Shown piece after piece: positions 4,901 through 20,242 of a stretch of DNA of 64,000 nucleotides. Made by a program: the position numbers and the translations under genes. The first letter of the stretch is position 1. The number at the start of each line of letters is the position of its first letter. This stretch comes from Streptacidiphilus rugosus AM-16 (GTDB taxonomy: Bacteria > Actinomycetota > Actinomycetes > Streptomycetales > Streptomycetaceae), in assembly GCF_000744655.1 (NCBI RefSeq), contig NZ_JQMJ01000003.1, positions 558,001 to 622,000 on the forward strand. Reading direction: 5' to 3'. The notes below the pieces were generated by a model. The model was given only the letters and a program-made list of their open reading frames with translations. It searched no databases and had not been told where the DNA came from.

Positions 4901-4994
4901 GAAGGCGCTCGGCGACACCTCCTCGGCGACCCGGAGCCGGGAGCGGGCCGACGCGCTCTTCGCCGGGATGGGCGTGCCGGACGAGGCCCGCTGA
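1957..4994 (+). CDS. AfsR-type SARP regulator with NB-ARC and TPR domains, frameshifted near 2200
   Basis: This is a large pathway-type transcriptional activator of about 1012 residues once the frame is repaired. It starts at TTG 1957, six bases after a good ribosome site (GCAGGAG). Residues about 10-80 form the OmpR-like winged helix (FNILGSLEIW ... HQIRKAVADLRRRIPG). Then comes the bacterial transcriptional activator domain (residues about 95-245, ending LLVEELGIDPGPRLV). An NB-ARC ATPase follows, with Walker A GMGGSGKTSLA near residue 323 and LLLLDNALD as Walker B. TPR-like repeats make up the last 300 residues. The reading frame changes by -1 at a run of four G's (2203-2206): the DNA-binding domain is in one frame and everything from GGGLLVTDGPGYRADV onward in another. 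One missing G would restore it, so the break may be a sequence error, a true mutation or, less likely, a programmed shift. As deposited, only a 142-residue truncated protein would be made from this start. Its position next to the NRPS/ATP-grasp cluster makes it the candidate activator. Confidence 0.85.
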
Positions 4995-5008
4995 GGGCGC
5001 GACGCGAA

Positions 5009-5057
5009 CGACGACGGCGTCCCGTACTCCGAGGTGGAGTGTGGGACGCCGTCGTCG
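5009..5057. terminator. Long hairpin terminator between convergent genes
   Basis: A 15-bp perfect outer stem (5009-5023 with 5043-5057) encloses a second 5-bp stem, ACTCC/GGAGT (5026-5030 with 5036-5040), joined through two G-T wobbles. It lies between the 3' ends of the SARP gene (plus) and the small peptide gene (minus), so it can end transcription from both sides. There is no T tract, as is usual in Streptomyces. Confidence 0.8.
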
Positions 5058-5084
5058 GTGTCGTGCGTGCGCCGCGCGTCGCGG

Positions 5085-5336
5085 TCAGCTCCCCGGCTGA
5101 CCGTCGTTCGGGCCGATGCCGTTGCCGTTGCCCGAGGGCTGCGCCACCAGCGGCGCGTTCGGGCCGATGCCGTTCGCCAGGACCTCCACCTCGGCCGGTG
5201 CGTTCGGACCGATCCCGTTGCCCGCCGTGACCTGCGTCGTACCCCCGTGCTGTGCCTGCGTCATCGTGATCCCCCCGAAGCCGAGAACCAGTGCCGCCGC
5301 GGCGATACCGATGAATCCGGCCTTCTTGATACGCAT
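5085..5336 (-). CDS. Small secreted peptide with three NGIGPN repeats
   Basis: This 83-residue ORF starts at ATG 5336 behind a G-rich ribosome site (AGGGGCGGGGAC). Residues 1-29 look like a Sec signal peptide: MRIKK, a hydrophobic Ala/Gly/Leu/Ile core, then a TQAQ end suited to signal peptidase I. The mature part of about 54 residues contains the hexapeptide NGIGPN three times (GNGIGPNAP, ANGIGPNAP, GNGIGPNDG) separated by short Val/Ala/Glu linkers; it has no Cys. I do not recognise the family. It lies downstream of, and on the same strand as, the ATP-grasp operon, 90 bp after the last ATP-grasp stop. It could be the last gene of that operon or have its own promoter. A multi-core ribosomal peptide precursor is a possibility, but a simple secreted structural or signalling peptide is equally open. 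Confidence 0.65.
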   Translation of the reverse strand: MRIKKAGFIGIAAAALVLGFGGITMTQAQHGGTTQVTAGNGIGPNAPAEVEVLANGIGPNAPLVAQPSGNGNGIGPNDGQPGS

Positions 5337-5426
5337 GTCCCCGCCCCTGAATTCTGCTGTGCCGTGCGCGGCCCGGTTCCGAACCGCTCTTCATGTCCCC
5401 CACATTGCTGTCGGCCGTTACTGAAC

Positions 5427-6329
5427 CTATCCCGTTCGGATACCGGACTGATCCCGCCCCAGCAGCTGCCGAACCGAGGCGACGCGTTCCGCTACCAGGG
5501 CGGATTCCGGCCCCTCCACGACGACCCTTCCGGTCCCCGCATCAGCGGTGCAGACCCGGACATACGGGAGCTCGGCGACCGCGGCGATGCCCGCGGCGGG
5601 GGCCGTCGAGCCGCCTCCGCCGGGCTCGTGCAGGCGGAAGTCGACGGTCGCGGCGGCGGTCTCCGGGCGGGGCGTCGGGACCTGTTCACCGGTCAGCGCA
5701 CGGGAGAGCCACAGCTCGGGATCGAAGCCCGCGGCCAGCCGCAGCAGCGTCGGGGTGCGGTCGCCCGCGCCGGGTTCGGCGGCGAGGACGACCGCCCCCC
5801 GGTCGGTGAGCGCCGCCTGGACGTAACTGAGCCCGAACTCCCAACCGGCGAGGTCGAGCAGGGCGGTGGCGGCCGCCCGCAGCTCGGCCACGTCCGCGTC
5901 GTCGAGCACGGCGGGATAGCACTCCTCGACGTCGGCCCTGCCGAAGGGTCCTTCGGACCGCCGCGAGGTGAGGGCGAGGACCTGGTGGGAGCCCTCGACG
6001 GTGAGGGTGAGGACGCCGAAGACGGGACCCTCGACCAGCTCCTCCAGGAGGTAGGGCCCCCGCGCCCGTTCCGCGGCCCGCCGCGCGAACCACGCGGTCA
6101 CCTCCGCCGCGGTGGACAGCAGCCCGACGCGGCGGCGGCCGGCGCCGTCGGTCCGCCGGACCACCAGCGGCAGTCCGAGCTCCCTGATCGCGTCCGGCAC
6201 CTCGCCGAGCGTCGCGGCCTCGGCCGCCCGGACGCGGCAGCGGCCGCTCTCGTTCAGCAGTCGGCGCAGCGCCGCGTGGTCGCCGAGGAGACGCCCGGCC
6301 CGGGCGGCGGCCCGCTCGGCGGTCAGCAT
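5427..6329 (-). CDS. ATP-grasp-like protein, short and probably degenerate
   Basis: This 300-residue protein resembles the carboxylate-amine ligases encoded upstream in the operon but is shorter, lacking most of the N-terminal pre-ATP-grasp domain. The start is ATG 6329, overlapping the tautomerase stop by 7 bases (ATGCTGA), which implies translational coupling. Recognisable pieces are the first ATP-binding strand PLVVRRTDGAG, YLLEELVEGPVFGV with its Glu-Glu, and a C-terminal strand FGLSYVQAAL...VVLAAEPGAGD. In active ATP-grasp enzymes the first strand normally carries Lys and the last two strands carry metal-binding Glu and Glu-x-Asn. Here Lys is Arg, the first Glu is Gln, and Glu-x-Asn becomes EPGAG. 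It may therefore be a partner or regulatory subunit rather than a catalyst; that is inference from the missing residues. Confidence 0.7.
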   Translation of the reverse strand: MLTAERAAARAGRLLGDHAALRRLLNESGRCRVRAAEAATLGEVPDAIRELGLPLVVRRTDGAGRRRVGLLSTAAEVTAWFARRAAERARGPYLLEELVEGPVFGVLTLTVEGSHQVLALTSRRSEGPFGRADVEECYPAVLDDADVAELRAAATALLDLAGWEFGLSYVQAALTDRGAVVLAAEPGAGDRTPTLLRLAAGFDPELWLSRALTGEQVPTPRPETAAATVDFRLHEPGGGGSTAPAAGIAAVAELPYVRVCTADAGTGRVVVEGPESALVAERVASVRQLLGRDQSGIRTG

Positions 6330-6541
6330 CGGTCCCTCTCCGACTGCGCGGCGGTGGCCAGGTGGTCGCAGAGGTTGCCGCCGCTGCCCCAGTGGTCCTG
6401 GGCGACGTCGCGGATCAGCACGGTCACGGCCTCCTTGGGGCAGCCGGCGATCCGTGAGGCGCTGGCGGTCAGTTCGGCCACCAGCTCGGCACGGGCGTCG
6501 CGGTCGTTGCCCTTCCACCAGTCGACGGTGATCACAGGCAC
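6323..6541 (-). CDS. 4-oxalocrotonate tautomerase family enzyme
   Basis: This 72-residue protein begins MPVITVDWWKG. After Met removal the N-terminal Pro is the catalytic base of the tautomerase superfamily. The segment VLIRDVAQDHWGSGG matches the conserved V-x-I-x-E-V-x-x-x-x-W-G-x-G-G signature of the small tautomerases. Length is typical; these enzymes work as hexamers and interconvert enol and keto forms. A ribosome site, GGAGGAA, lies 7 bases before the ATG. Placed between an ATP-grasp homologue and a cysteine-synthase-like gene, it may act on an enolisable pathway intermediate, for example a dehydroalanine-derived or glutarimide-type compound. The substrate is not deducible from the sequence. 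Confidence 0.85.
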   Translation of the reverse strand: MPVITVDWWKGNDRDARAELVAELTASASRIAGCPKEAVTVLIRDVAQDHWGSGGNLCDHLATAAQSERDRC

Positions 6542-6583
6542 GGGGTTCCTCCAGATGAACGGTTGGACGGGCGAAGTACGGGA

Positions 6584-7504
6584 TCAGGCCCAGAGACTGA
6601 GGTAGCGCTCGCCGGTGTCGGGCAGCACCGTGACGACGGTCCGACCCGCGTACGCGGGCTTCGCGGCGAGCCGGGCGCAGGCGTGCACGGCGGCCCCCGC
6701 CGAGACCCCGGTGAGGACGCCCTGGCCGCGTGCCAGCGCGCGGGCGGTCCCCATGGCGTCCTCGTCGGAGACCGTGACGACCTCGTCGATCAGCGACACG
6801 TCGGTGGTGCCGGCCACGAAGCCGCCGTTGAGGCCGGGGATGCGGTGCTGGCCCGCGGTGCCGAGGGAGAGCACGGGCGAGCTCTCCGGCTCGACCGCCA
6901 CCACGTGCACCTCGGGCTTGCGCTCCTTGAGGTACCTGGCGATCCCGGTCAGGGTGCCGCCGGTGCCGACGCCGCAGACCAGAACGTCGACCTCGCCGCC
7001 GGTCCCGGTCCAGATCTCCGGCCCGGTGGTCTCGTAGTGGGCCCGCACGTTGTCGGGGTTCTCGTGCTGGCAGGTGTACCAGGAGCCCGGCGTGGCCGCG
7101 TGGATCTCCTCGGCCCTGGCGATCGCGCCCTGGTAGCCCTCGTCCCTCCCGGTCCGCACCACCTCCGCGCCGAGCGCGGTGAGCAGCGAGATCCGTTCCT
7201 GGGTGGCGCTGTCCGGCAGCACGATGACGCAGCGGTAGCCGCGCGCCGCGGCGAAGGCCGCCAGCGCGATGCCGGTGTTGCCGGAGGTGGACTCGACGAC
7301 GGTGCCGCCGGGACGCAGCTCCCCGCGTTCCTCGGCCGCGCGCAGCATGTAGAGCGCGGCGCGGTCCTTGACGCTGGAGAGCGGGTTGGCCGATTCCAGC
7401 TTGGCGAGGACCCGCACCTCGTCGGTGACGCCTTCGAGGCGGAGCCGCAGCAGCGGGGTGGAGCCGACCAGGTCGGTGATGCTGTCGGCGACGGTCTGGG
7501 GCAT
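6584..7504 (-). CDS. Cysteine-synthase-like PLP enzyme (beta-substituted alanine synthase), copy 1
   Basis: This is a 306-residue fold-type II PLP enzyme of the O-acetylserine sulfhydrylase family. The PLP lysine lies in SSVKDRAA (about residue 40), the substrate loop is STSGNTG (about residue 72) and the phosphate-binding loop is GTGGTLTG. The C-terminal GVSAGAA carries the serine that contacts the pyridine nitrogen. Start ATG 7504 follows GAGGACC. Such enzymes condense O-acetylserine with sulfide or with another nucleophile to give beta-substituted alanines. Because the cluster also encodes a serine acetyltransferase and a second paralogue at 13526, a dedicated role in making a non-protein amino acid is more likely than housekeeping cysteine synthesis. 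The 45 bp around its start are identical to those of the paralogue. No SbnB-like dehydrogenase is nearby, so a diaminopropionate route of the Sbn type is not supported. Confidence 0.9.
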   Translation of the reverse strand: MPQTVADSITDLVGSTPLLRLRLEGVTDEVRVLAKLESANPLSSVKDRAALYMLRAAEERGELRPGGTVVESTSGNTGIALAAFAAARGYRCVIVLPDSATQERISLLTALGAEVVRTGRDEGYQGAIARAEEIHAATPGSWYTCQHENPDNVRAHYETTGPEIWTGTGGEVDVLVCGVGTGGTLTGIARYLKERKPEVHVVAVEPESSPVLSLGTAGQHRIPGLNGGFVAGTTDVSLIDEVVTVSDEDAMGTARALARGQGVLTGVSAGAAVHACARLAAKPAYAGRTVVTVLPDTGERYLSLWA

Positions 7505-7525
7505 GGTGCGGTCCTCACTGCGGAG
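7481..7525. repeat. 45-bp perfect repeat around start codon of cysteine-synthase copy 1
   Basis: Positions 7481-7525 are identical to 14528-14572. Both span the ribosome site and the first eight codons of the two cysteine-synthase-like genes. The rest of the genes has diverged, so the initiation region has been kept identical by selection or gene conversion. Confidence 0.9.
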
Positions 7526-7625
7526 AGACGGAGCGGCTTCGTTCCTGGCTTGCACCCAGCCTGGCCGTCCCCGGTCCCGAAGCCTTCCCGTGCCGGTCCC
7601 GCCCCAGGACCACGCCCGGTCCCGA

Positions 7626-8888
7626 CTACCGGGTCTCCAGGACCAGTCCGCCGAGGAACCACTGCTCGACCTGCCGCAGCCGCTGCTCCACCTCGGACCG
7701 GCTGCGGCCCGAAACCAGCACCGTGCACAGGAAGTCGGAGGAGGTCCTGGCCGCCGCCATGGTCTGCCCCGGCGTGACGAAGACCCGGAAACGCTCGATC
7801 CAGGGCAGGTCCGGGGCGGCCTCAGGTACCGCGACGACTCGTCCGGGGCGCTTCATCAGCACCAGCTGACCGGTCATCATGCGCGGTTCCGGCAACCGGT
7901 CCTGCTGCGCTTCGGCCACCGGAACCGGCAGTCCGAGCTCCGCCCGCAGCCAGCTCTCGGTCGGATCCGCGCCGAAGAGCAGGCCGACCACGTCGCGGAT
8001 GGCCGCGCCTCCGGTGCGGCAGGCGATCTCGCAGAGCACCAGCTCGTCGTCGGGGGTGTGGAACACCTCCGCGTGGAAGGCGAAGTTCTCCGGGCCCGGC
8101 ATCACCTCCAGCAGCCGCTCGGCGAAGGCGAGCAGGCGGTGGGTGAGGGGGTCCTCCGGGTCCAGGGTGAGGTCGATCCGCGGCCCGGTGTCGGTGGCGA
8201 AGGTCGCCAGCGGGTACTGGTACTGCGAGGGCCAGGCCATGGCGGTCCGGCCGCCGCGGACCAGGCCGTCCACGTGGCAGAGGGCGCCGGGCACGTACTG
8301 CTCGGCGATCAGGTTGGGCTGGCCCGCCCCGTACAGGTCGAAGTCGTCGGCCAGATAGGCGTCCAGCTCGTCCGGGGTCTCCAGGATGCGCAGGCCGACC
8401 GAGCCGGCGCTGTCCCTGGGCTTGAGCACGACGGGGTACCCGTACTCGGCGGCGAAGGACAGGATGTCGGTGGCCGTCTCGATCTGCCGGTGCGCGGCCA
8501 CCCGCACCCCGGCCGCCGCCGCGAGCTCCTTCATGACCGCCTTGTCCCTGAACGGCAGTACCGAGTCCGGCTGCTGGCCCGGAAGTCCGAGGAACTCCCG
8601 CAGTGCGGCGGCTCGTTCCAGGTCGCGCTCATGGCTGGCGAGGACGTGGGTGACGCCGCGTTCGCGGGCCAGGTCGACGACCCGCTCCTCCAGCGCGCCG
8701 CTGGCGTCGTAGCCCGCGACCGCCTCGGTGTACGCGTAGCCGGAGCCGCTCTCCGGGATCTCCTCGCCGACCCTGGCCAGATTGTCCGGGCAGGCCAGCA
8801 GCAGCACGTCGTCCTCGTGGTCGGCGAGCCAGCGGTCGTAGGGGACGGCGTGCACCGAGCCGACCTGGTGCAGGACTATGACACTCAT
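7626..8888 (-). CDS. ATP-grasp carboxylate-amine ligase
   Basis: This 420-residue protein has the full three-part layout of ATP-grasp amino-acid/peptide ligases. An N-terminal Rossmann-like domain (MSVIVLHQVG...) covers about 110 residues. The ATP-grasp fold follows, with VVLKPRDSAGSVG supplying the first ATP lysine and Gly-rich loop, and LIAEQYVPG the adenine-side Glu. The C-terminal strands FHAEVF and LVLCEIACRTGG carry the metal ligands. These enzymes activate a carboxylate as acyl phosphate and join it to an amine. Start ATG 8888 overlaps the stop of the preceding gene by four bases (ATGA). All catalytic positions I can read are intact, unlike in the two degenerate homologues in this operon. 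The substrates are unknown; a free amino acid made by the PLP enzymes is the natural candidate. Confidence 0.85.
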   Translation of the reverse strand: MSVIVLHQVGSVHAVPYDRWLADHEDDVLLLACPDNLARVGEEIPESGSGYAYTEAVAGYDASGALEERVVDLARERGVTHVLASHERDLERAAALREFLGLPGQQPDSVLPFRDKAVMKELAAAAGVRVAAHRQIETATDILSFAAEYGYPVVLKPRDSAGSVGLRILETPDELDAYLADDFDLYGAGQPNLIAEQYVPGALCHVDGLVRGGRTAMAWPSQYQYPLATFATDTGPRIDLTLDPEDPLTHRLLAFAERLLEVMPGPENFAFHAEVFHTPDDELVLCEIACRTGGAAIRDVVGLLFGADPTESWLRAELGLPVPVAEAQQDRLPEPRMMTGQLVLMKRPGRVVAVPEAAPDLPWIERFRVFVTPGQTMAAARTSSDFLCTVLVSGRSRSEVEQRLRQVEQWFLGGLVLETR

Positions 8889-9670
8889 CGGACCGTCTCC
8901 AGCAGCTCGTTCGTCGACCGTCGCGCCATCGGGGACGGTCCTTCCACGCCGGCCTGGGCGCGGACCAGGGCGCGGGTGGGCGCCGTGTGGCCGGTGTACC
9001 GGACCCGGTCCACCACCCACGCGCCATGGGCGTCCCGCACCGCGTCGACCTCCAGTGGGTGGCCCGCCGACGGGGCGAGGGCGGTCAGCGCGGCGTCGGT
9101 CACCGGGAGCCCGGGACCGCGGTGCCGCTCGCCGAGGGTCATCGGCTCCACCACCAGGGCGGCGGTGCTCCGCTCGCCCTCGGTCAGCCCGCCCCGGGCG
9201 AAGGCCCGCAGGGCCGCCTCGTCGGTCAGCTCCGCGACGACCCCGCGCTCGGCGCCGCGCCGCCGCCGGACGGCCAGCGGGTAGCCCCAGGCGTGCGCGG
9301 CCCGGTAGAGGTCGGGGATCCGGCCCGCCGCCGCGCGCGGCAGCGTGGGAACCCCGGCGGCGGCCAGCAGTTCGCCGGCCAGGATCAGGTCGGCCCCCGC
9401 CAGGGCCTGGTCGCGGGTCTGGCCCGGCAGGCACAGGTGGTCGCGGAGCGAGCCCGCCCGGATCTGGTCGTCCGGGTGCAGGGCGATCACGCCTGCGACG
9501 GGCGTACGGGCGGCGGTCCGCAGGACCGCCAGCTCGGCGGCGGCGGTGTCGGCGAAGCCGGGGAGCTCGGTGTCGCCGATCCGCACGATGCGGTGGCCGG
9601 TGTCGCCGAGCCACTGGCCGTACGGCAGTTCGCCGAGCGAGGCGCGGTGGAGGATCACCAGGGTGGTCAT
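8885..9670 (-). CDS. Degenerate ATP-grasp homologue
   Basis: This 261-residue protein starts with MTTLVILHRASLGELPYGQWL, closely parallel to the start of its neighbour (MSVIVLHQVGSVHAVPYDRWL), so the two arose by duplication. It keeps the N-terminal domain and part of the central domain but loses catalytic positions. The ATP lysine strand reads LAVRRRRGAERG. The final strands read PLEVDAVRDAHGAWVVDRV, with no Glu-x-Asn metal site, and the Gly-rich substrate loop and C-terminal tail are missing. Both ends overlap neighbours by ATGA (9667-9670 and 8885-8888), which predicts stoichiometric, coupled translation. A scaffolding or substrate-channelling role beside the intact ligases is my inference; drift towards a pseudogene is the alternative, though the frame and coupling are fully preserved. 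Confidence 0.7.
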   Translation of the reverse strand: MTTLVILHRASLGELPYGQWLGDTGHRIVRIGDTELPGFADTAAAELAVLRTAARTPVAGVIALHPDDQIRAGSLRDHLCLPGQTRDQALAGADLILAGELLAAAGVPTLPRAAAGRIPDLYRAAHAWGYPLAVRRRRGAERGVVAELTDEAALRAFARGGLTEGERSTAALVVEPMTLGERHRGPGLPVTDAALTALAPSAGHPLEVDAVRDAHGAWVVDRVRYTGHTAPTRALVRAQAGVEGPSPMARRSTNELLETVR

Positions 9671-12156
9671 GACTGCTCCTCGCCTTCCATGCGGATGGTC
9701 AGCCGGGTCGCCAGCAGCTCCTCGCAGAGCAGCACGGCCTTGTCGGTGTCGGCGGCGGTGACGGCGAGCATCCCGAGGCGGTCCCAGTTGTCCCTGGTCG
9801 CCGGCACGACCGTGCCCGGCCGGGCGGCGAGGTCCAGGGCGATCACGTCGGGGTGGGCGCGCAGCTCCGTCACGCCCTCGACCTCGCGGACGGTCCCCTC
9901 GCGGCCGATGACGCCGCGGGCGCAGGCGGCGGCGCGGGCCGTCGGCCGCTGTTCCAGTGCGTCGACCAGGCCGAACGGCCAGGCGAGTGCGTATCGGACC
10001 AGGTCGATGCCGTAGGCCGCCTCGACCAGGCTCTGGATCCGGCCGCCGCCGTTGCGGTTGTGGCCCTCGATGATCAGCGGTCCCCGGGGCGAGAGCCGCA
10101 GCTCGGTGTGGCCGGGGCCGTCCTGGACGCCCATCGCGTCGAGGAACGCGGCGACCGCCTGCTCGACGCCGCGCTCCTGCTCCGGCTCCAGCCGGGCCGG
10201 CAGGGCGTGGCCCAGTTCGGCGAAGTGGGTCTCGTCGACGAGCTTCTCGGTGATCGCGACCAGCACGTGGCGGCCGCCGAAGCTGAACGACTCGACGCTG
10301 AACTCCGGTCCGGGGATGTACTCCTCCATCAGGTAGTCGTCGAGCCGATAGAGCGTGCTGCCCCGGTCGACGCCGGTCTGCCTGGCCGCGCCGATCCGCT
10401 GCCAGACCTCGTCGAGCTGCTCGGGGCCCTGGACCTTGAAGATGCCGAACCCGGCGGTCAGGTCGACCGGCTTCACCACGAAGGGGTAGCCGTGCGCGCG
10501 CCCGAAGGCGGCCATGCTGTGCCGGTCCACCAGCGGCTCCGCGCCGATCGCGAACTGCGGCGCGGTCACCGCGAGATGACGTCGCATGGCGAGCTTGTCG
10601 CGGAGCAGGTTGGCCGCGGACCAACTGGTCCCGCCCAGGCCGAACATGTCGTTGACCCGTCCGGCGATCTCCAGCCCCGGCTCGGTCAGGGAGAGCGCGG
10701 CGGCGAAGGGCCAGCGCTGGTGGGCCGCCCTGACCAGCGGCTCCACCACGGTCCAGTCCGTGAAGTCGGCGACGAAGGTGACGTCGGCGAGCTGCGCCTG
10801 CTCCGGCTCGAACCTGTCCTTGTGCTGGATCAGGATCACGTGCAGGCCCAGCGACTTGGCGATCCGCAGCGGCTCGGTGAGGTGGCCGAGGACGAGCAGG
10901 GTCTTCGCCGGGTCCATGGCCGCGGCGGATCCTCGGCCGACCGCCGGGGCGTCCGGCCGGGTCAGCCGCAGCAGCGCCTTGGCCGCGGCGGCCCGCTGCT
11001 CGGTCTGCTCGGCGTCGGACCCGTCGACGATCACGAAACCGTGCCGGCTGCCCGAGTGCACCGTGACCGGCAGCCGGTCGCCGGGCCCGTAGGGGAAGTT
11101 CAGGTCGTGGACGTGGCCCAGCCGGCCGATCGCGTCGAGTCCGCCGACGGCGGTGATCGGCCCCGGCTCCAGCTGGAAGAAGGAGATCGCGGCGGACCTG
11201 ACGGCCGGAGCGGGCACGACGTCGCGCCCGGCCAGGGCCTCGAAGATCGCCGCCTCGATGTCGAAGCCGGTGGCGATACGGATCAGCTGCGGGATCCGGT
11301 CACCGCCCAGCCGCGCCTGCGACTCGACGACGCGCGGCCCGGCCGCGGTCAGGATGATCTCGGTGTGGGCCGGGCCGAAGCGGTGCCCGGCGGCGTCCAG
11401 CAGGGCGACGACCAGCTCCCGCACGTCGCGCGCGGTGTCGGCCGGGAGCGGCGCCGGGAAGAGCTGCCCGGTCTCCACGAAGAGCGGCCCGTCGGTGACC
11501 CGCTTCGCGGTGATGCCGACGACCTGGTGGACACCGCCGGCGCTGAGCGTCTCGACGCTGAACTCCGGTCCCTCCAGGTACTCCTCCAGCACCACCGGGC
11601 CCTGGTAGCCGAAGTCGTCGATCTCGCCGCGCCAGGCGCCCAGGTCCTCGGGTCCGTGCACCAGCCGCACCGCGGCGCTGCCCGCCAGCCGGGTCGGCTT
11701 GACCACCGCCGGGTAGCCGAAGGCCTCCATCAGCGCCGGGACCTCGCCCGCCGTCGCGGCCACCGCGGTGCGCACCGGCGAGAGCCCGCGCTCGGCGAGC
11801 AGCTGCCGGGTCAGCGCCTTGTCGTTGAGAAAGCGCACCGCCCGCACCGGGTTGACGGCCAGCCCGAGCGCCTCGGCCTCCTCCACCACCGCCAGCATCG
11901 TGGCCTCCTGGCCCAGATGCAGGATGTGGGCGACGTCGTGGGCCAGGGCGGTCTCGCGGACCAGGGCCCGCAGGGCGGCCTCGTCCTCGAAGTCGACGTG
12001 GAGCAGGTCGGCGGAGTGCGCGGCGACGTCGGCCAGATAGGCCTCGGACTGCAGGGTCGGGTCCCAGATCGACCAGACCTGGAATCCGGCGGCCGCTGCC
12101 TTCTCCACCAGCTGGCGGTAGGGCTGGACCATCAGGATCCGGTGGTTGGCGGTCAT
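9667..12156 (-). CDS. Tandem double ATP-grasp ligase
   Basis: This is an 829-residue fusion of two complete ATP-grasp ligase modules. Module 1 (residues about 1-405) has PAVVKPTRLAGSAAVRLV, VVLEEYLEGPEFSVE and VVESQARLGGDRI. Module 2 (about 415-829) starts again with a Rossmann-like segment, KTLLVLGHLTEPLRIAKSL, and has PFVVKPVDLTAGFGIFKV, LMEEYIPGPEFSVE and LIIEGHNRNGGGRI. Both keep the ATP lysine and the Glu-x-(Asn/Gln)-x-Arg metal/substrate motif, so both may be active, perhaps adding two residues in turn. Start ATG 12156 has GAGAGGA upstream; an earlier ATG at 12237, overlapping the MFS stop as ATGA, would add 27 residues and fits the coupling seen elsewhere in the operon. Tandem fusion of these ligases is unusual. 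Substrates are unknown. Confidence 0.85.
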   Translation of the reverse strand: MTANHRILMVQPYRQLVEKAAAAGFQVWSIWDPTLQSEAYLADVAAHSADLLHVDFEDEAALRALVRETALAHDVAHILHLGQEATMLAVVEEAEALGLAVNPVRAVRFLNDKALTRQLLAERGLSPVRTAVAATAGEVPALMEAFGYPAVVKPTRLAGSAAVRLVHGPEDLGAWRGEIDDFGYQGPVVLEEYLEGPEFSVETLSAGGVHQVVGITAKRVTDGPLFVETGQLFPAPLPADTARDVRELVVALLDAAGHRFGPAHTEIILTAAGPRVVESQARLGGDRIPQLIRIATGFDIEAAIFEALAGRDVVPAPAVRSAAISFFQLEPGPITAVGGLDAIGRLGHVHDLNFPYGPGDRLPVTVHSGSRHGFVIVDGSDAEQTEQRAAAAKALLRLTRPDAPAVGRGSAAAMDPAKTLLVLGHLTEPLRIAKSLGLHVILIQHKDRFEPEQAQLADVTFVADFTDWTVVEPLVRAAHQRWPFAAALSLTEPGLEIAGRVNDMFGLGGTSWSAANLLRDKLAMRRHLAVTAPQFAIGAEPLVDRHSMAAFGRAHGYPFVVKPVDLTAGFGIFKVQGPEQLDEVWQRIGAARQTGVDRGSTLYRLDDYLMEEYIPGPEFSVESFSFGGRHVLVAITEKLVDETHFAELGHALPARLEPEQERGVEQAVAAFLDAMGVQDGPGHTELRLSPRGPLIIEGHNRNGGGRIQSLVEAAYGIDLVRYALAWPFGLVDALEQRPTARAAACARGVIGREGTVREVEGVTELRAHPDVIALDLAARPGTVVPATRDNWDRLGMLAVTAADTDKAVLLCEELLATRLTIRMEGEEQS

Positions 12157-12233
12157 GGCGGTTCGGGTCCTCTCGGAGGGGTGGGGAAGGTCTCGGGGGT
12201 GCGCGGCGGAGCTCGTCGTCGCTCGCTGCGTGC

Positions 12234-13529: not shown

Positions 13530-14551
13530 CGGGTCGCTCCCGCGGTGACGAGGTTCTGGGCGGAGGCGCCGGCGGGCGCCTGCGGGGACGGGTCCGCGGA
13601 CGCCTCGGCGGGCGTCTCCGCGGGCGTCTCGGCGGGCCACCAGCTCAGGTAGCGCTCACCGGTGTCGGGGAAGACGGTCACCACGGTCGAGCCCGCGAGG
13701 TCGTGGCGGCGGGCCAGCACCGCGCAGGCGTGGGCGGCGGCCCCCGAGGAGACGCCGACCAGCAGCCCGGCCCGGCGGGCGATCGCCCGGGTCGCGGCGG
13801 CGGCCTCCTCGTCGGAGACCGCGATCACCTCGTCGATCAGGGTCAGGTCGGTGACCGGGCTGACGAAGCCGCCGTTCAGCCCGGGGATGCGGTGCGGTCC
13901 GGGCTCGCCGCCGGACAGCAGCGCGGAACCTGCGGGTTCGACGGCGACGACCCTGAGCTGCGGATTGCGCTCGCGCAGGTGACTCGCGATGCCGGTCAGC
14001 GTGCCGCCGGTGCCGACCGAGCAGACCAGCACGTCGACCCGGCCGCCGGTGGCGTCCCAGATCTCCGGTCCGGTGGTCTCGTAGTGGGCTCGCACGTTGT
14101 CGGGGTTGGTGTGCTGGCTCGCGTACCAGGAGTCCGGCAGTTCGGCGGCGCGCCGCTGCGCGTGCTCCACGCAGCCGGCGAAGCCGAGCGAGGAGTCGGT
14201 GAACTCGACCTCGGCACCCAGCATCCGCAGCGTCAGCACGCGTTCCCGCGAGGCGTTGTCCGGCAGCACGATCAGGCAGTGGTAGCCGCGGGCGGTGGCC
14301 AGCGAGGCCAGGGCGATGCCGGTGTTGCCCGAGGTGGACTCGACGACGGTGCCGCCGGGACGCAGCTCGCCGCGTCGCTCGGCGGCGAGCAGCATGGAGA
14401 GCGCGGCACGGTCCTTGATGCTGGAGAGCGGGTTGGCCGACTCCAGCTTGGCGAGGATCCGCACCTCCTCGCCCACGCCGTCCAGGCGCAGCCGCAGCAG
14501 CGGGGTGGATCCGACCAGGTCGATGACGCTGTCGGCGACGGTCTGGGGCAT
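13526..14551 (-). CDS. Cysteine-synthase-like PLP enzyme, copy 2, with acidic C-terminal tail
   Basis: This 341-residue paralogue of the enzyme at 6584 has the same landmarks: SSIKDRAA (PLP lysine), STSGNTG, VGTGGTLTG and GVSSGAA. Both proteins begin MPQTVADS and share long identical stretches, yet their active-site neighbourhoods differ, for example in the loop between SDSWYASQH and the copy-1 equivalent GSWYTCQH. This suggests different nucleophiles or different acyl-serine donors. It carries an extra tail of about 35 residues with repeated PAET/PAEA units after GERYLSWW, absent in copy 1. Start ATG 14551 follows the same GAGGACC ribosome site. A small Arg-rich ORF and the serine acetyltransferase lie just upstream, so O-acetylserine is probably delivered locally. 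Confidence 0.9.
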   Translation of the reverse strand: MPQTVADSVIDLVGSTPLLRLRLDGVGEEVRILAKLESANPLSSIKDRAALSMLLAAERRGELRPGGTVVESTSGNTGIALASLATARGYHCLIVLPDNASRERVLTLRMLGAEVEFTDSSLGFAGCVEHAQRRAAELPDSWYASQHTNPDNVRAHYETTGPEIWDATGGRVDVLVCSVGTGGTLTGIASHLRERNPQLRVVAVEPAGSALLSGGEPGPHRIPGLNGGFVSPVTDLTLIDEVIAVSDEEAAAATRAIARRAGLLVGVSSGAAAHACAVLARRHDLAGSTVVTVFPDTGERYLSWWPAETPAETPAEASADPSPQAPAGASAQNLVTAGATR

Positions 14552-14572
14552 GGTGCGGTCCTCACTGCGGAG
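14528..14572. repeat. 45-bp perfect repeat around start codon of cysteine-synthase copy 2
   Basis: Partner of 7481-7525; identical over 45 bp including the ribosome site and the first codons. Confidence 0.9.
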
Positions 14573-14604
14573 CGGAAGAGGTCGGGAGCGGGTGGCGGCG
14601 GCGT

Positions 14605-14736
14605 TCACGCGGGCCGTCCGCGGAGGTGCTCGACGCGGGAGCCCTCGACGCGGGAGACGTCCCGCACGAGCCGGTACGCCCGGAGCCTGAGGCGGTGCGT
14701 CAGCCGCCGCGCGGCGCGGCGGGCCTGCGCGGTCAC
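14605..14736 (-). CDS. Small Arg-rich ORF coupled to serine acetyltransferase
   Basis: This 43-residue ORF starts with GTG at 14736 inside the stop of the serine acetyltransferase gene (GTGA overlap) and ends 53 bp before the next start. It is very basic, with 14 Arg among 43 residues (TAQARRAARRLTHRLRLRAY...), and has no signal peptide. I do not recognise it. The GTGA overlap is the pattern of real coupled genes in this operon and favours translation, but the length and Arg content are also what a chance ORF in high-GC DNA gives. It fills a space that would otherwise be a 181-bp gap. Confidence 0.3.
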   Translation of the reverse strand: MTAQARRAARRLTHRLRLRAYRLVRDVSRVEGSRVEHLRGRPA

Positions 14737-15341
14737 CAGGACCCCGCCGAGGCCGTGAGCGAGAAGAGGTCCTCCATCAGCCGGGGCTGGTCGTGCAGCG
14801 GCCGGACCACCGCGGTCTGGGCGAGCACCCTGGCGTAGGCGGGCACGTCCTTGTTGACCAGCGCCTGCGCGCCGATGACGGCGTGGTCCTCGATGGTCAC
14901 CGGGCCGAGCACGGTGGCGTTCGTGCCGAGGACGACGCCGTTGCCCACCCGGGGGTGCCTGCGCTCCCCCTCGGGCCGGTCGTTGTCGCTCCACCAGCCG
15001 ACCGCGCCGAGTGTGACCTGGTGGTAGATCGTCACGTCGTCGCCGACCTGGGCCGTCTCGCCGATCACCACGGCCGCGCCGTGGTCGATGAAGACCCGGC
15101 GGCCGAGCTCGGCGCCCGGGTGGATCTCGACGCCGGTGGCCCGCCGGGCGAGGTAGGCGAGGATCCGGGCGGCCATGCGGCGCCCGCGGCGGTGCAGCCG
15201 GTGGGCGACGCGGTGCGTCCACAGCGCCGGCAGGGCGGGGTGGAGCAGCGCCTCGCGGCGGTTGCGGATGGAGGGATCGCGCTCGACGACCACGTGCAGG
15301 TCCTCGCGGAGCACGCTCAGGATGCCTGTCGGCTCCGGCAT
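14733..15341 (-). CDS. Serine O-acetyltransferase (CysE/EpsC type)
   Basis: This 202-residue left-handed beta-helix acyltransferase makes O-acetylserine from serine and acetyl-CoA. The N-terminal helical part (SVLREDLHVVVERDPS...) is followed by hexapeptide repeats from about residue 70 (GVEIHPGAELG, VFIDHGAAVVIGETAQVGDDVTIYHQVTLG). IDHG and GETA contain the catalytic His/Asp region of serine acetyltransferases. The C-terminal GSW is not the usual cysteine-synthase-binding Ile end. Start is ATG 15341. In this operon it can feed both cysteine-synthase-like enzymes. Its presence as a second, cluster-borne acetyltransferase indicates a committed non-protein amino acid branch. Confidence 0.88.
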   Translation of the reverse strand: MPEPTGILSVLREDLHVVVERDPSIRNRREALLHPALPALWTHRVAHRLHRRGRRMAARILAYLARRATGVEIHPGAELGRRVFIDHGAAVVIGETAQVGDDVTIYHQVTLGAVGWWSDNDRPEGERRHPRVGNGVVLGTNATVLGPVTIEDHAVIGAQALVNKDVPAYARVLAQTAVVRPLHDQPRLMEDLFSLTASAGSW

Positions 15342-15422
15342 GTCGGATCGGCCCTTCTTCTTGCGGTGCGGGTGAGGGAGGTGTGCGGTACTGCGGAGTG
15401 GGAGGTGCGAGCGTTCGGACCG

Positions 15423-16025
15423 TCAGGCGCCGACGAGGGCGTCGCTGCCGGCCTCGTTGCGGGCGTCCAACGTGGCGAAGACCGCGCGGACCAGGCTGTC
15501 CAGGGCGGCCAGCACGTCGGGGTCGGTGAAGCAGGCGGTCCCGCCCGCCTCGGCGCGCAGCGCGCCGGCCCGGCCGACGGCGACCGGCTCGTGCGCCACC
15601 AGCTCCGCGCCGCAGCGGCCGAGCACGGCGGTCAGCGTCGGCTGGGCGTCCAGCGCGCCCCGGGCGCCGGGGGAGGCGCTGGTCACGGCCACGGTCTTCC
15701 CGGTGAGCGGGCAGGAGCCGCCCGGACGGGAGAGCCAGTCCAGCGCGTTCTTGAGCGCCCCCGACATCTCGCCGTTGTAGGAGGGCGTGCTGATGAAGAC
15801 CGCGTCCGCCTGCTCGACCAGCGCCTTGGCCTCCCGCACGGCGACCGAGCTGTCCTGCTGCTCGATCTCCGCGTCGTAGAAGGGCAGCAGGCCCACGGAC
15901 AGCCAGCTGATCTCGTGCGAGGCGGCGTCGGGCCGCTCGCCCACCAGACGGCGGACGGTCTCCAGGACGGCGGTGTTGTGCGAGTCCCGGCGGATGCTGC
16001 CGGAGACGAGAACGATCTTGGCCAC
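15423..16025 (-). CDS. NADPH-dependent FMN reductase
   Basis: This 200-residue flavodoxin-fold protein is of the NADPH-FMN reductase family. MAKIVLVSGSIRRDSHN is the N-terminal phosphate-binding loop for FMN (G-S-x-R-x-x-S-x-N). STPSYNGEMSGALKNALDW is the conserved active-site segment that holds the isoalloxazine ring and the dimer contact. It reduces flavins or quinones with NADPH. It is the first gene of the minus-strand biosynthetic operon, diverging from the NRPS, whose Ox domain is FMN-dependent. It may regenerate reduced flavin or act on the redox-active product; which one is not shown. Start ATG 16025 is the only one giving the full phosphate loop. Confidence 0.88.
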   Translation of the reverse strand: MAKIVLVSGSIRRDSHNTAVLETVRRLVGERPDAASHEISWLSVGLLPFYDAEIEQQDSSVAVREAKALVEQADAVFISTPSYNGEMSGALKNALDWLSRPGGSCPLTGKTVAVTSASPGARGALDAQPTLTAVLGRCGAELVAHEPVAVGRAGALRAEAGGTACFTDPDVLAALDSLVRAVFATLDARNEAGSDALVGA

Positions 16026-16077
16026 AGCGGCACTCCCAGTTCGCAGGTTTTCGACTGCTCAGAGACTCGCCGAGGCC

Positions 16078-16118
16078 GTTCCCGAACGCGTCCCGCGCCG
16101 ATCCCGGCCCGTCCCGGT
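16078..16118. promoter_or_regulatory. Putative SARP operator: four TCCCG repeats at 10-11 bp spacing
   Basis: TCCCG occurs at 16080, 16091, 16102 and 16112 (spacing 11, 11 and 10 bp), on the same face of the helix. SARP activators characteristically bind direct heptamer repeats with 11- or 22-bp spacing that overlap the -35 region. The site lies in the divergent promoter region between the FMN reductase operon and the NRPS, so one activator could switch on both. Binding is inference. Confidence 0.45.
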
Positions 16119-16226
16119 ATCGGCCCGGGAGGGGCGAGGGAGCCGTCCGCCGCACTGTGATCACCGGCCGCTCAACAGGGGCCGGGTGCCCCGTGGAGGG
16201 GAGTGCACCCGGGCCCTGCGCCGCAG

Positions 16227-16263
16227 CGTTCCCCGGCTCCGTCTCGACGGGCGCCGGGGAACG
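16227..16263. promoter_or_regulatory. Inverted repeat in NRPS upstream region
   Basis: CGTTCCCCGGC (16227-16237) and its exact complement GCCGGGGAACG (16253-16263) are separated by 15 bp, about 75 bp before the NRPS start. It could be an operator or a leader hairpin; nothing else identifies it. Confidence 0.35.
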
Positions 16264-16339
16264 CCGGGCGCGGCGTCGGGCCACATGTCCACGGGGGCTG
16301 GTCTGCCACCCATCGAGCTTCACGTTGCGGGGACGAACC

Positions 16340-19300
16340 ATGAACAGCACGAGCGCACTCACGTACGGCACCAACGGCACCATCGCGTCGGACCGGTCCG
16401 GCGCCGCGGTCGCGGACGTCTGCCTGTCCGACCTGCTGGCCCGGCAGGCGGCCGAGCGGCCCGACGCGACCGCGGTCGCCTTCCGGAGCGAAAGGCTCTC
16501 CTACCGGCGGCTCCACGAGCTGAGCCGGGAGCTGGGCGCGGGGCTGGCCGGACTCGGGGTCCGCCCGGACGACTGCGTGGGCCTGTTCACCGAGCCGTCG
16601 CCGGACCTGATGGTCGGCGCCTGGGGCATCCTCGCGGCGGGGGCCGCCTATCTGCCGCTCTCCCCCGACTACCCGGAGGACCGGCTCCGCTACATGATCG
16701 AGGACTCCGGCACGACCGTCGTCGTCACCCAGCCCCACCTGCGCGACCGGCTGCTGTCCCTCGCGCCGCCCGGGACCAGGATCGTCACCCCCGAGGACGA
16801 GCTGCACGGCCCGTCGGCCGCCGTGCCGGTGGAGCCCCGCGCGGAGAACCTCGCCTACGTCATCTACACCTCGGGCAGCACCGGCAAGCCCAAGGGCGTG
16901 ATGATCGAGCACCGCTCCATCGTCAGCCAGCTGCGCTGGCTCGGCTCCTGCGGTCATCTCGGCCCGCAGGTCACCGTGCTGCAGAAGACGCCGATGAGTT
17001 TCGACGCCGCCCAGTGGGAGATCCTCGCCCCGGCCGCGGGCGCCAGGGTCGTGATGGGCGAGCCCGGCATCTACCGCGACCCGCAGGCCCTGGTGGAGAC
17101 CGTTCGCGCCTACGAGGTCACCACCCTGCAGTGCGTGCCGACGCTGCTCCAGGCGTTGCTGGACACCGAGGGCTTCGCCGACTGCGGCAGCCTGCGCCGG
17201 GTCTTCTCCGGCGGGGAGGCGCTGACGCACAGTCTGGCCAGGGACTTCTTCCGCGAGATGCCGGGGGTCTCGCTGGTCAACCTGTACGGCCCGACCGAGA
17301 CCACCATCAACGCGACCGCGCACCAGGTCGATCCCGAGGACCTGGCCGACACGGTCGGCGACTCCTGCACGGTCCCCATCGGCGTGCCCGTGGACGACGT
17401 GTCCGCGTACGTCCTGGACGAGAGCCTGGCGCCGGTCGACATCGGCGAGCCGGGTGAGCTGTATCTGGGCGGCGTCCAGGTGGCCCGCGGCTATCTGGGA
17501 CGGCCCGAGCAGACCGCCGAACGCTTCGTGGCCGCTCCGTTCGGTCCCGACCAGCGCCTCTACCGGACCGGCGACGTCTGCCTGTGGAACCCGGACGGGA
17601 CACTGCAGTTCGCCGGCCGCACCGACAACCAGGTCAAGCTCCGCGGGTACCGGGTCGAGCTGGAGGAGGTGTCCGCGCGGATCGAGGAGCACACCTGGGT
17701 GCGCAGGGCCGCCGCGATCGTCACCGACGACGCGAGGACCGGCCACCAGGCGCTGGTCGCCTGCGTGGAGCTGAACCCGAAGACCGCGGCCGTCATGGAC
17801 CAGGGATCGCACGGCGGCCATCACCAGTCCAAGGCGTCGAAGCTCCAGGTCAAGGCGCAGCTCTCCAACCCCGGTCTGCGCGAGCCAGAAGAGCTGGCCG
17901 GGCGTCAGGTCACCGCGCTGCCCGGGCGGACGGAGACGCCCGAGCAGCGCAGGGAGACCTTCGCCAGGAAGACCTACCGCTTCTACGAGGGCGGCCGGGT
18001 CAGCAGGGAGGATCTGCTCGCCCTGCTGGCGCCGCGAGCCGGGTCCGCGTACGCGCGGCGTCCCGACCAGCTCACCTTCGCCGAACTCGGCGAGATCCTG
18101 CGCTGGTTCGGCCAGTTTCACAGTCCGGAACGGCTGCTGCCGAAGTACTCCTACGCCTCGCCGGGCGCGCTGTACGCCACCCAGCTCTACCTGGAGTCGG
18201 GTGGCGGGGTGGCCGGTCTCCGGGCGGGCGTCCACTACTACCACCCGGTCGACCACACGCTGGTGCGCGTCGGCGAGCCCACCGGACAGTGCCGTGACGG
18301 CGGGCTGCTGGTGCACTTCCTCGGCAAGCGACGGGCCATCGAGCCGGTCTACCGGAACAACATCCTCGAGGTGCTGGAGTTCGAGGCCGGCCACATGCTC
18401 GGCGTCCTGGAGGAGGTGCTGCCGGGTCACGGGCTGACCGTCACGCCGGTCGGCCTGCTGGAGCCGGTACAGGCGGCGCTGGACGTCGCGGCCGAGGACC
18501 ACTACCTTGGCACCTTCGAGATCACCGCCAACGACGGCCGCCCGCGCCCCGATCACACCGAGCTGTTCGTCCAGGCCCACGGCGACCTGGTCGGCGACCT
18601 GCCCGGCGGCCAGTACCGCTACCGGGACGGACGGCTCGAACCGCTCGGCACCGAGGTGATCGAGGCCAGGCACGTCATCGCGATCAACCAGGGCGTCTAC
18701 GCGCGGGCCGGCTTCGGCATCAGCGCGGTCAGCCGCGCGCCCGAGCCGTGGCTGGAGTACATCAGCCTGGGCGCCAGGCTGCACCAGCTCCAGCGCACCC
18801 CCGGCTTCGGCTTCATGCCCTCGGGCTACTCCTCGAAGACCGGCCACCCGCTGCCCGCCGCCCGCCGCCTCGACGACATCCTGGGCGCGCACGGCATCCC
18901 GACCGGCGCCTCGTACTTCTTCCTCGGCGGCCGGGTGAGCGACGAACAGGTCGCCGGCGAGGGGATGTACGAGGACTCCGTGCACACCAAGGGCCCCGCG
19001 GAGATGATCCGTGACGAACTGGCCCAGTTCCTGCCCGACTTCATGCTGCCCAACCGGGTCCTGGTGCTGGACGCGCTGCCGTTGACCGCCAACGGCAAGA
19101 TCGACGCCAAGGCCCTGGCGAAGGCCCCGGAGGTGTGCGCGGCGCAGCAGACGGGACCGTACGAGCCGCCGTCCACGCCCACCGAGAAGTGGCTGGCCGA
19201 GGCGTGGGGCGCGGCGCTGAGGTACGAGGACGTGTCCGCGCTGGACGAGTTCTTCTCCTGCGGCGGGAACTCGCTGATCTCGGTGGCGCTGGTCAACCGG

Positions 19301-20242
19301 GTCAACCGGGAGTACGGCATCCGACTGCCGCTCCAGGTCATCTTCGAGGCGCCCAGGCTGCGCGAGCTCGCGGCCAGGATCGACGACGCCGCGGCGGGCG
19401 GCGCCGACACGGGGTCCCGGCTGATCCCGCTCGCCCGCGAGGGCTCGCGCAGCCCCGTCTTCTGCTGGCCCGGCCTCGGCGGCTACCCGATGAACCTGCG
19501 CCTGCTCGGCAGCGGGACCGGTGCACTCGACCGCCCCTTCTTCGGCGTCCAGGCCTTCGGCATCAACACGGGTGAGACCCCGTACCCGACGATCAGGGAG
19601 ATGGCCGCCGCCGACCTCGGCGAGATCCGCGGCGTCCAACCGGCCGGCCCGTACACCCTGTGGGGGTACTCCTTCGGGGCGCGCGTGGCCTTCGAGGCGG
19701 CCTGGCAGCTGGAGCAGGCGGGCGAGAAGGTCGACCGGCTCTTCCTGATCTGCCCCGGCAATCCGCAGCTGGGCCGGCCCGGCGGCCAGGACGCCGCCGC
19801 GCCCGCACCGAACGGCCGGGCCAGGGAGGCGTCCTGGGCGAACCCCGCCTACGTGACCATCCTCTTCTCGGTGTTCGCGGGGACGATCGAGGGGCCGGAG
19901 CTGGCCGCCTGTCTGGCCGCCACCCGTGACGAGGCCGGTTTCGTCGCCTTCGTCCATGACCTGTTCCCGTCGCTGGACCGGGAGACGATTCTGCGGATCA
20001 CCAGGATCGTGGGCACCACCTACGAATTCGACTACAGCTTCCACGAGCTGAAGGAACGCACCATCGAGGCGCCGATCACCATCTTCAAGGCGCGGGGCGA
20101 CGACTACTCGTTCATCGAGAGGCACAGCGGCTACTCGACCCGGCTCCCGACCGTCGTCGAGCTGGAAGGGGACCACTACAGCGTGCTGAAGGAGCACGGC
20201 GTGGCCGAACTCCTGGCGGCGGTCCACGCCGCGACGGACTGA
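16340..20242 (+). CDS. Single-module NRPS, A-Ox-T-TE, indigoidine synthetase type
   Basis: This 1300-residue protein has the compact architecture of IndC/BpsA blue-pigment synthetases, which turn L-glutamine into the monomer of indigoidine. The adenylation domain carries YTSGSTGKPKGVM near residue 175 and YRTGD near 407. The FMN-dependent oxidase domain (about residues 490-860; RKTYRFYEGG, PKYSYASPGALYATQLYL, FGISAVSR) is inserted between the late adenylation motifs; the A10 motif LTANGKIDAKAL appears only at about 915. A carrier domain follows (FFSCGGNSL near 971) and a thioesterase with GYSFGAR near 1110. Length and order match the family closely. The pocket residues I can place (SFDAAQWE, TETTIN) agree with glutamine-type synthetases. 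ATG 16340 is preceded by GCGGGGACG. Typical partner genes indA/indB are absent, so the product may be diverted from indigoidine. Confidence 0.93.
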   Translation: MNSTSALTYGTNGTIASDRSGAAVADVCLSDLLARQAAERPDATAVAFRSERLSYRRLHELSRELGAGLAGLGVRPDDCVGLFTEPSPDLMVGAWGILAAGAAYLPLSPDYPEDRLRYMIEDSGTTVVVTQPHLRDRLLSLAPPGTRIVTPEDELHGPSAAVPVEPRAENLAYVIYTSGSTGKPKGVMIEHRSIVSQLRWLGSCGHLGPQVTVLQKTPMSFDAAQWEILAPAAGARVVMGEPGIYRDPQALVETVRAYEVTTLQCVPTLLQALLDTEGFADCGSLRRVFSGGEALTHSLARDFFREMPGVSLVNLYGPTETTINATAHQVDPEDLADTVGDSCTVPIGVPVDDVSAYVLDESLAPVDIGEPGELYLGGVQVARGYLGRPEQTAERFVAAPFGPDQRLYRTGDVCLWNPDGTLQFAGRTDNQVKLRGYRVELEEVSARIEEHTWVRRAAAIVTDDARTGHQALVACVELNPKTAAVMDQGSHGGHHQSKASKLQVKAQLSNPGLREPEELAGRQVTALPGRTETPEQRRETFARKTYRFYEGGRVSREDLLALLAPRAGSAYARRPDQLTFAELGEILRWFGQFHSPERLLPKYSYASPGALYATQLYLESGGGVAGLRAGVHYYHPVDHTLVRVGEPTGQCRDGGLLVHFLGKRRAIEPVYRNNILEVLEFEAGHMLGVLEEVLPGHGLTVTPVGLLEPVQAALDVAAEDHYLGTFEITANDGRPRPDHTELFVQAHGDLVGDLPGGQYRYRDGRLEPLGTEVIEARHVIAINQGVYARAGFGISAVSRAPEPWLEYISLGARLHQLQRTPGFGFMPSGYSSKTGHPLPAARRLDDILGAHGIPTGASYFFLGGRVSDEQVAGEGMYEDSVHTKGPAEMIRDELAQFLPDFMLPNRVLVLDALPLTANGKIDAKALAKAPEVCAAQQTGPYEPPSTPTEKWLAEAWGAALRYEDVSALDEFFSCGGNSLISVALVNRVNREYGIRLPLQVIFEAPRLRELAARIDDAAAGGADTGSRLIPLAREGSRSPVFCWPGLGGYPMNLRLLGSGTGALDRPFFGVQAFGINTGETPYPTIREMAAADLGEIRGVQPAGPYTLWGYSFGARVAFEAAWQLEQAGEKVDRLFLICPGNPQLGRPGGQDAAAPAPNGRAREASWANPAYVTILFSVFAGTIEGPELAACLAATRDEAGFVAFVHDLFPSLDRETILRITRIVGTTYEFDYSFHELKERTIEAPITIFKARGDDYSFIERHSGYSTRLPTVVELEGDHYSVLKEHGVAELLAAVHAATD

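Follow-up and report, generated by a model that had tools for sequence, protein, structure and literature searches.

An IndC-type NRPS, a distinct cysteine-synthase subfamily and ATP-grasp ligases in one cluster of Streptacidiphilus rugosus: a possible route to ring-bearing alanines

The cluster and its gene content

The pathway proposed for minimycin first tautomerises the ring and then hands it to MinB, a C-glycosynthase that joins it to ribose (PMC8724604). In Streptomyces albus the indigoidine NRPS is described as surrounded by genes for IndA, IndB and a tautomerase (PMC3992020). In S. lavendulae, the pSA3239 cluster, annotated as the IndA version, carries genes for PRPP synthetase, tautomerase, EamA, UPRT and SARP.

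Here we analysed a 64,000-nucleotide stretch (the window) of the 9.0 Mb, four-contig genome of the soil bacterium Streptacidiphilus rugosus AM-16 (G000), reading both strands and scanning with Pfam and NCBIfam profiles, and searched a genus sample of 14 genomes that includes the window's own and a family sample of 297 genomes (genomes and loci carry our G and L numbers). All the genes named in the original prediction were recovered at or near the positions it had assigned, in the arrangement it described: an A-Ox-T-TE NRPS (16340-20242, plus strand) is divergent, across an intergenic region (16026-16339) arranged likewise in locus L039, from a minus-strand operon. The NRPS matches the AMP-binding (2e-90), PP-binding and thioesterase families; its Ox part has no Pfam match of its own and was traced through similarity to other IndC-type NRPSs. 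The operon begins with an NADPH-dependent FMN reductase (15423-16025; FMN_red, 6e-31), followed by a serine O-acetyltransferase (SAT) with the C-terminus ASAGSW (14733-15341; hexapeptide, 5e-15), the cysteine-synthase relative OASS2 (13526-14551), a predicted MFS exporter (12234-13529; MFS, 4e-33), a tandem ligase of two ATP-grasp/LAL_C2 units (9667-12237; ATP-grasp, 8e-37, in two stretches), the truncated degenerate ATP-grasp protein graspD (8885-9670), the single ATP-grasp amino acid ligase graspS (7626-8888; LAL_C2, 4e-10), a second cysteine-synthase relative, OASS1 (6584-7504), a 4-oxalocrotonate tautomerase-like protein with a GTG start and a proline at position 2 (6326-6544; PF01361, 3e-15) and graspC (5427-6329), a degenerate ATP-grasp protein lacking the N-terminal domain. 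Neither graspC nor graspD has a Pfam match, but both can be aligned to the ATP-grasp proteins. The two OASS match the PALP family at 5e-79 and 3e-77, and among NCBIfam models the SAT falls under the cut-off of cysE (9e-53) and over that of EpsC (165 bits, cut-off 150). A promoter and terminator scan of 4900-16500 gave no promoter-like and one terminator-like site, no more than shuffled sequences give.

The full gene set and order, from the NRPS through the SARP gene, recur in G177 (L039), so that the cluster is more than a chance assembly. Relatives of the tandem ligase at E <= 1e-100 occur in 32 of the 297 family genomes, and five of them besides the window's own, that of G177 included, match over nearly the full length with 66-75% identity. 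The lysine and the acidic metal-binding segment of ATP-grasp enzymes are kept in both tandem domains and in graspS. In graspC and graspD the ATP/Mg-binding positions are lost, and graspC was ruled out as an active ligase because its lysine and metal-binding positions are changed. The mansouramycin neighbourhood was rejected as a relative: as described, it pairs a gene for an ATP-grasp protein with one for an MFS protein, and no IndC partner is mentioned (PMC12892944).

At its start the range holds a gene that is absent from the original prediction, encoding a small secreted repeat peptide that has a signal-like N-terminus and carries three NGIGPN repeats (5085-5336, minus strand), convergent with a SARP regulator with BTAD, NB-ARC and TPR parts (2013-4994, plus strand). 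The two genes are convergent in all 13 loci where the peptide occurs (the window, L039, L047, L178, L179 and L181-L188), G177 thus included; in relatives the repeats read GEGPN, DEGPN, NNGGPD or NAGPG and number from one (L179) to 16 (L181), and codons change synonymously between repeats. Wrong-frame pattern matches in L044, L179, L191, L196, L197 and L199 were excluded, the single-repeat peptide of L179 coming from a separate reading, and no repeat peptide was found at the SARP-like matches of L045, L055 and L130. One possibility is that the peptide is the precursor of a signal that the SARP senses through its TPR part; a literature search on SARPs and signalling peptides gave, to judge by titles and the opening lines of abstracts, no paper on this. 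In the window, at about 1873-2200, the winged helix lies just upstream of the BTAD part in another frame, so the SARP looks frameshifted in this assembly, while the L039 homologue is continuous. The frameshift could be an assembly error.

Alternative partners of the NRPS

The window NRPS has its A, Ox, T and TE domains in one chain with intact motifs, as in the IndC/BpsA family. Its adenylation motif FDAAQWE is conserved in the commonest variants among the compared NRPS rows, and the full code, read by eye as DAWQFGLINK, is one that we take to be of the glutamine type. In a PDB search with the NRPS, the best 60 matches listed are NRPSs or other adenylating enzymes, none of them named indigoidine synthetase. 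A family-wide search seeded with the Ox segment found it in 53 of the 297 genomes, at 59 IndC-type sites, 57 of which were read (G212:C366 and G188:C173 were left out). Cluster-type OASS genes accompany the NRPS at 19 of these 57 loci, IndA at eight and neither at 30, and no locus has both. In two of the 19 (G080, G278) the NRPS and OASS lie 11 kb apart, and one locus counted among the 30 (L090) carries an OASS-like gene of generic type, at 38% identity. The absence of IndA from the window cluster, part of the original prediction, was borne out, since PF04227 has no match there and its only match in the genome lies on another contig (G000:C4:203256).

OASS and IndA are thus alternative companions of the same NRPS, and the simplest reading is that SAT and OASS take the place of the ribose-phosphate supply and IndA. 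This argues for a reading to which we give about an even chance: that the NRPS and the tautomerase make a glutamine-derived ring of the dihydroxypyridine type, that the OASS joins this ring to alanine and that the ligases make an exported peptide. The tautomerase, which in the minimycin pathway is proposed to provide the C-glycosynthase with its substrate, speaks for the same reading, as its gene is present in all 19 OASS-type loci (7/8 IndA-type and 5/30 other loci); this gene sits inside the OASS operon in the window, G177 and G292 and does not adjoin the NRPS there. So does the similarity of the NRPS motifs in all contexts, which holds as far as the commonest variants go in 58 other aligned rows, with two loci present twice and some rows truncated. 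SAT accompanies 16 of the 19 OASS-type loci; the other three (L055, L136, L043/L126), where none was found, count against the coupling of a ring to alanine.

The NRPS tree (57 rows, a quick method with SH-aLRT support only, L121 and L131 omitted as the L047 and L041 loci again) does not bring the OASS context together in one clade. Its starred branches imply at least three gains or losses of the OASS and ATP-grasp context and at least five of the IndA context. The NRPSs of the window and G177 cluster with two IndA-type NRPSs (99, starred), and that of L047, an OASS locus, pairs with the truncated row of L135, an IndA locus (99, starred). The original prediction had proposed co-occurrence as a check; the pairing of the NRPS with this OASS is not unique, being found in 18 of the 297 family genomes and in a Breoghania MAG (L207; Stappiaceae). 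In the latter, NRPS pieces, a tautomerase and an OASS with the pocket signature described below lie together with no SAT match, and their company again favours a ring joined to alanine. Five clusters (L119, L120, L123, L128, L140) have NRPS, tautomerase, SAT and OASS with no ATP-grasp match within the 8-10 kb read on each side.

Two further observations concern these loci. In L042, L043, L117 and L126 (G080, G278) the NRPS/OASS/ligase clusters are joined to what appear by eye to be genes for DAHP synthase, a PhzE-like protein and chorismate mutase. L140 is an NRPS-tautomerase-EamA-SAT-OASS set on the megaplasmid pCLA1 of S. clavuligerus ATCC 27064, a well-known strain, for which indigoidine is named among possible products (PMC4640377).

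The OASS subfamily, its acetyltransferase and a second genomic context

In a tree, the cluster OASS split from eight CysK sequences (100/100). Among 51 cluster OASS, 45 have QH for the QF of CysK and GGF for its AGF, 42 of them with an asparagine before GGF; the remaining six, which have QD and GIGAGY, make up a second clade of paralogues. Both window OASS carry QH and GLNGGF rather than pocket motifs of the QF/GIGAGF type of CysK, and keep the PLP lysine and the TSGNTG loop; the genome's other four OASS relatives are without QH/GLNGGF. The GIGAGF motif, we assume, holds Ala231 of OASS-A. The cleft of that enzyme is described as lined by PLP, Phe143 and Thr177, with Met119, Ala231 and Gln142 nearby (PMC3805590). 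This separation from CysK and the changed pocket signature support the joining of a ring to alanine. We also scanned named genomes with the OASS alignment, seeding on other motifs and keeping the best 80 loci, four of which carry QH/GLNGGF (Lentzea, Streptomyces sp. JJ36, Actinophytocola and Breoghania; L204 is the same JJ36 record as L179). The 12 commonest patterns among these 80 loci (74 rows) comprise the four QH/GLNGGF and 70 QF; ordinary CysK thus dominates the best 80 loci and the named hosts are few.

OASS1 groups with the OASS of AsnS-type operons, described below (92/86, not starred), and OASS2 with the OASS of NRPS/ligase clusters (100/99), each in the clade common to such clusters. 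Because its two OASS fall in different clades, two lineages seem to have merged in the window, which may yield two amino acids; a single product does not explain the pair, which weighs against our reading.

The SATs are distinctive as well. Tryptophan ends 31 of 37 cluster SATs and isoleucine none, while in the loci of ordinary CysK, a control set drawn from other phyla and families, isoleucine ends 11 of 14 and tryptophan none; the six cluster SATs without a terminal tryptophan count against the coupling of a ring. The window SAT ends in tryptophan, not in the isoleucine of the cysteine synthase complex, a residue whose weight is described for OASS-A (PMC3805590). A literature search found no paper joining a C-terminal tryptophan with serine acetyltransferase. 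From these sequences we take SAT and OASS as a co-evolved complex with a pocket that would accept a planar ring, which fits the change of the SAT tail from isoleucine to tryptophan.

OASS1 matches at E <= 1e-93 occur in 36 of the 297 family genomes, 18 with the NRPS beside the OASS and 16 with what we call the AsnS-type operon, in which genes for asparagine synthetase and acyl-CoA dehydrogenase stand together with PrpF/4-oxalomesaconate-tautomerase-like and dihydroorotase-like genes. Because G283 carries one of each kind, on different contigs, the two groups make 33 genomes; next to the OASS, neither kind is present in G132, in G235 or in G009, which has the paralogue only. The AsnS-type operon of G273, G242 and G293 borders on the QD/GIGAGY paralogue, and the QH OASS of these genomes is 19-27 kb away. 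A PrpF-like gene at E <= 1e-50 is present in 33 of the 297 genomes: the 14 best matches together with G273 and G242 are exactly the 16 AsnS-type genomes, and among the remaining 17 G009 alone belongs to the 36 with an OASS1 match. No such gene was found in G000, G177, G292, G235 or G132. No Ox domain was found in any of the 16 ligase genomes previously without an NRPS match; among those with a QH OASS, the AsnS-type operon is present in G128, G242, G245, G273 and G293, and neither module in G235. We gave up the notion that this OASS cannot do without the NRPS, since QH OASS occur in ligase genomes where no Ox domain was found. A cyclic imide could also come from the joint action of an amidating enzyme, an amide cyclase and a desaturase. 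graspC-like stretches are present in all ten AsnS-type loci examined (L178, L179, L181-L188), mostly beside the tautomerase. Some of the AsnS-type operons (L178-L189, L192-L195) also have TauD, HpcH aldolase, an FAD monooxygenase-FMN reductase fusion or MetK.

Several loci do not fit the coupling of a ring to alanine. G235 has two QH-type OASS loci with neither an IndC NRPS nor AsnS-type genes found; the OASS contig of G132 is without ring genes, its NRPS lying on another contig beside IndA; and in L203 and L205 an EamA-SAT-OASS set has neither ring module within 10 kb. In L205 (Actinophytocola oryzae) the set lies beside apparent PhyH, proline racemase, DAO and SDR genes, judged by their first residues, which are perhaps a third ring source.

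Proposed chemistry and comparison with known systems

In the proposed pathway the NRPS would load, dehydrogenate and cyclise glutamine, and the tautomerase would turn the released ring into a nucleophilic tautomer (of the 3-amino-2,6-dihydroxypyridine type) before it dimerises to indigoidine. SAT would supply O-acetylserine, and the OASS, with its changed pocket, would add the ring to the aminoacrylate, yielding a ring-bearing alanine in the place of the IndA/MinB C-glycosynthase. The ATP-grasp ligases would then extend this amino acid to a short peptide, to be exported by the MFS protein. The gene set, its conservation, the alternative partners and the subfamily signatures are observed; from them we infer the coupling, its substrate, the bond (through C or N of the ring), the number and order of ligations and the reason for keeping two OASS. 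A C-C bond between ring and alanine would be unusual for an OASS and tells against this scheme. One functional cluster leading from O-acetylserine to a beta-substituted alanine, with a glutamine-derived ring, peptide assembly and export, is what the original prediction had proposed, and to judge from the genes this outline stands. Its ligation of separately made pieces gives way to direct coupling by the OASS, which we favour because the five OASS-type clusters noted above show no ATP-grasp match nearby.

Alternatively, the OASS could accept a small nucleophile, be it ammonia, another amine or sulfide, and make 2,3-diaminopropionate or similar, which the ligases would join to other pieces, one being the NRPS ring. 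We consider this unlikely. Both OASS do match the SbnA-type diaminopropionate synthase model (TIGR03945), but under its cut-off (243.3 and 241.0 bits, cut-off 349.95), and G235, where no ring module was found, retains OASS and ligases; however, in the clusters without a nearby ligase nothing evident could link the pieces, and the pocket and SAT tail suggest a larger, planar partner. It is decidedly improbable that SAT and OASS serve to provide cysteine, or a different amino acid with a thiol, whose sulfur adds to the oxidised azaquinone ring to give a sulfur-linked amino acid or peptide. Quinone-like rings do react with thiols, and both enzymes belong to the families expected; OASS1 even exceeds the cysK cut-off (TIGR01139, 357 against 350.95; OASS2, at 334.5, is under it) and is therefore still CysK by profile, a point against ring coupling. 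Yet the pocket positions are unlike those of ordinary CysK, and primary metabolism already provides cysteine. Two neighbouring pathways, the NRPS making indigoidine and the operon an unrelated ATP-grasp peptide, are very improbable: OASS and ATP-grasp loci without the NRPS do exist (L044, L045, L048, L049), but three of them (L045, L048, L049) are by or near an AsnS-type operon, and NRPS and OASS keep company in the 18 genomes, in NRPSs that do not form one clade.

The direct joining of ring and alanine could be generalised, and here we are more tentative, holding it possible rather than probable: the OASS clade would be a new class of PLP enzymes that join six-membered cyclic-imide or dihydroxypyridine rings to alanine, with its own tryptophan-anchored SAT, fed by one of two ring-forming modules that are unrelated to each other, either an IndC NRPS or the AsnS/PrpF-isomerase/acyl-CoA-dehydrogenase/dihydroorotase-like set; the outcome would be the counterpart, among amino acids, of the C-nucleoside antibiotics. 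If the reading is true, this is an undescribed route to unusual amino acids in which a pigment-type ring is fixed to alanine, and some NRPSs filed as indigoidine synthetases, one on the S. clavuligerus megaplasmid among them, make amino acids instead. New pyridine-type amino acids and peptides could then be found by QH, GLNGGF and tryptophan-ended SATs, and a cysteine-synthase relative would become a candidate for catalysing the attachment of heterocycles to alanine. The original prediction knew of no described system with this gene set, and we likewise found no description of the NRPS-OASS association in the literature within our search, which left most subscription journals outside.

Among known systems, the solanimycin NRPS SolG is distant, its model NF041803 matching the window's adenylation region with 433 bits, far under the cut-off of 2200. 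The ligases share the ATP-grasp fold and LAL_C2 with the L-amino acid ligases of the BacD and DdaF type, whose models match under their cut-offs, but the window has a tandem fusion and two degenerate ATP-grasp proteins. With CysK, CysM and O-ureido-L-serine synthase (3x43) the window OASS share the PLP fold, the lysine, the TSGNTG loop, the Gln and a partner SAT; unlike the CysK-type synthases they have QH/GLNGGF instead of QF/GIGAGF, a tryptophan-ended SAT and ring-forming genes nearby. Other beta-substituted alanine synthases are the plant enzymes of the mimosine type. The pSA3239 cluster has SARP and tautomerase genes in common with the window, and EamA besides. Compared with the C-nucleoside clusters of the IndA/MinB type, the window has the tautomerase (6326-6544) and no YeiN-like C-glycosynthase. 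With the minimycin and indigoidine pathways of Streptomyces (minA-D,T; indA-C; bpsA) it shares an IndC-type A-Ox-T-TE NRPS, a tautomerase, a ring-intercepting enzyme and an exporter, but where these have IndA/MinB and uracil phosphoribosyltransferase, the window has SAT, OASS and ATP-grasp ligases.
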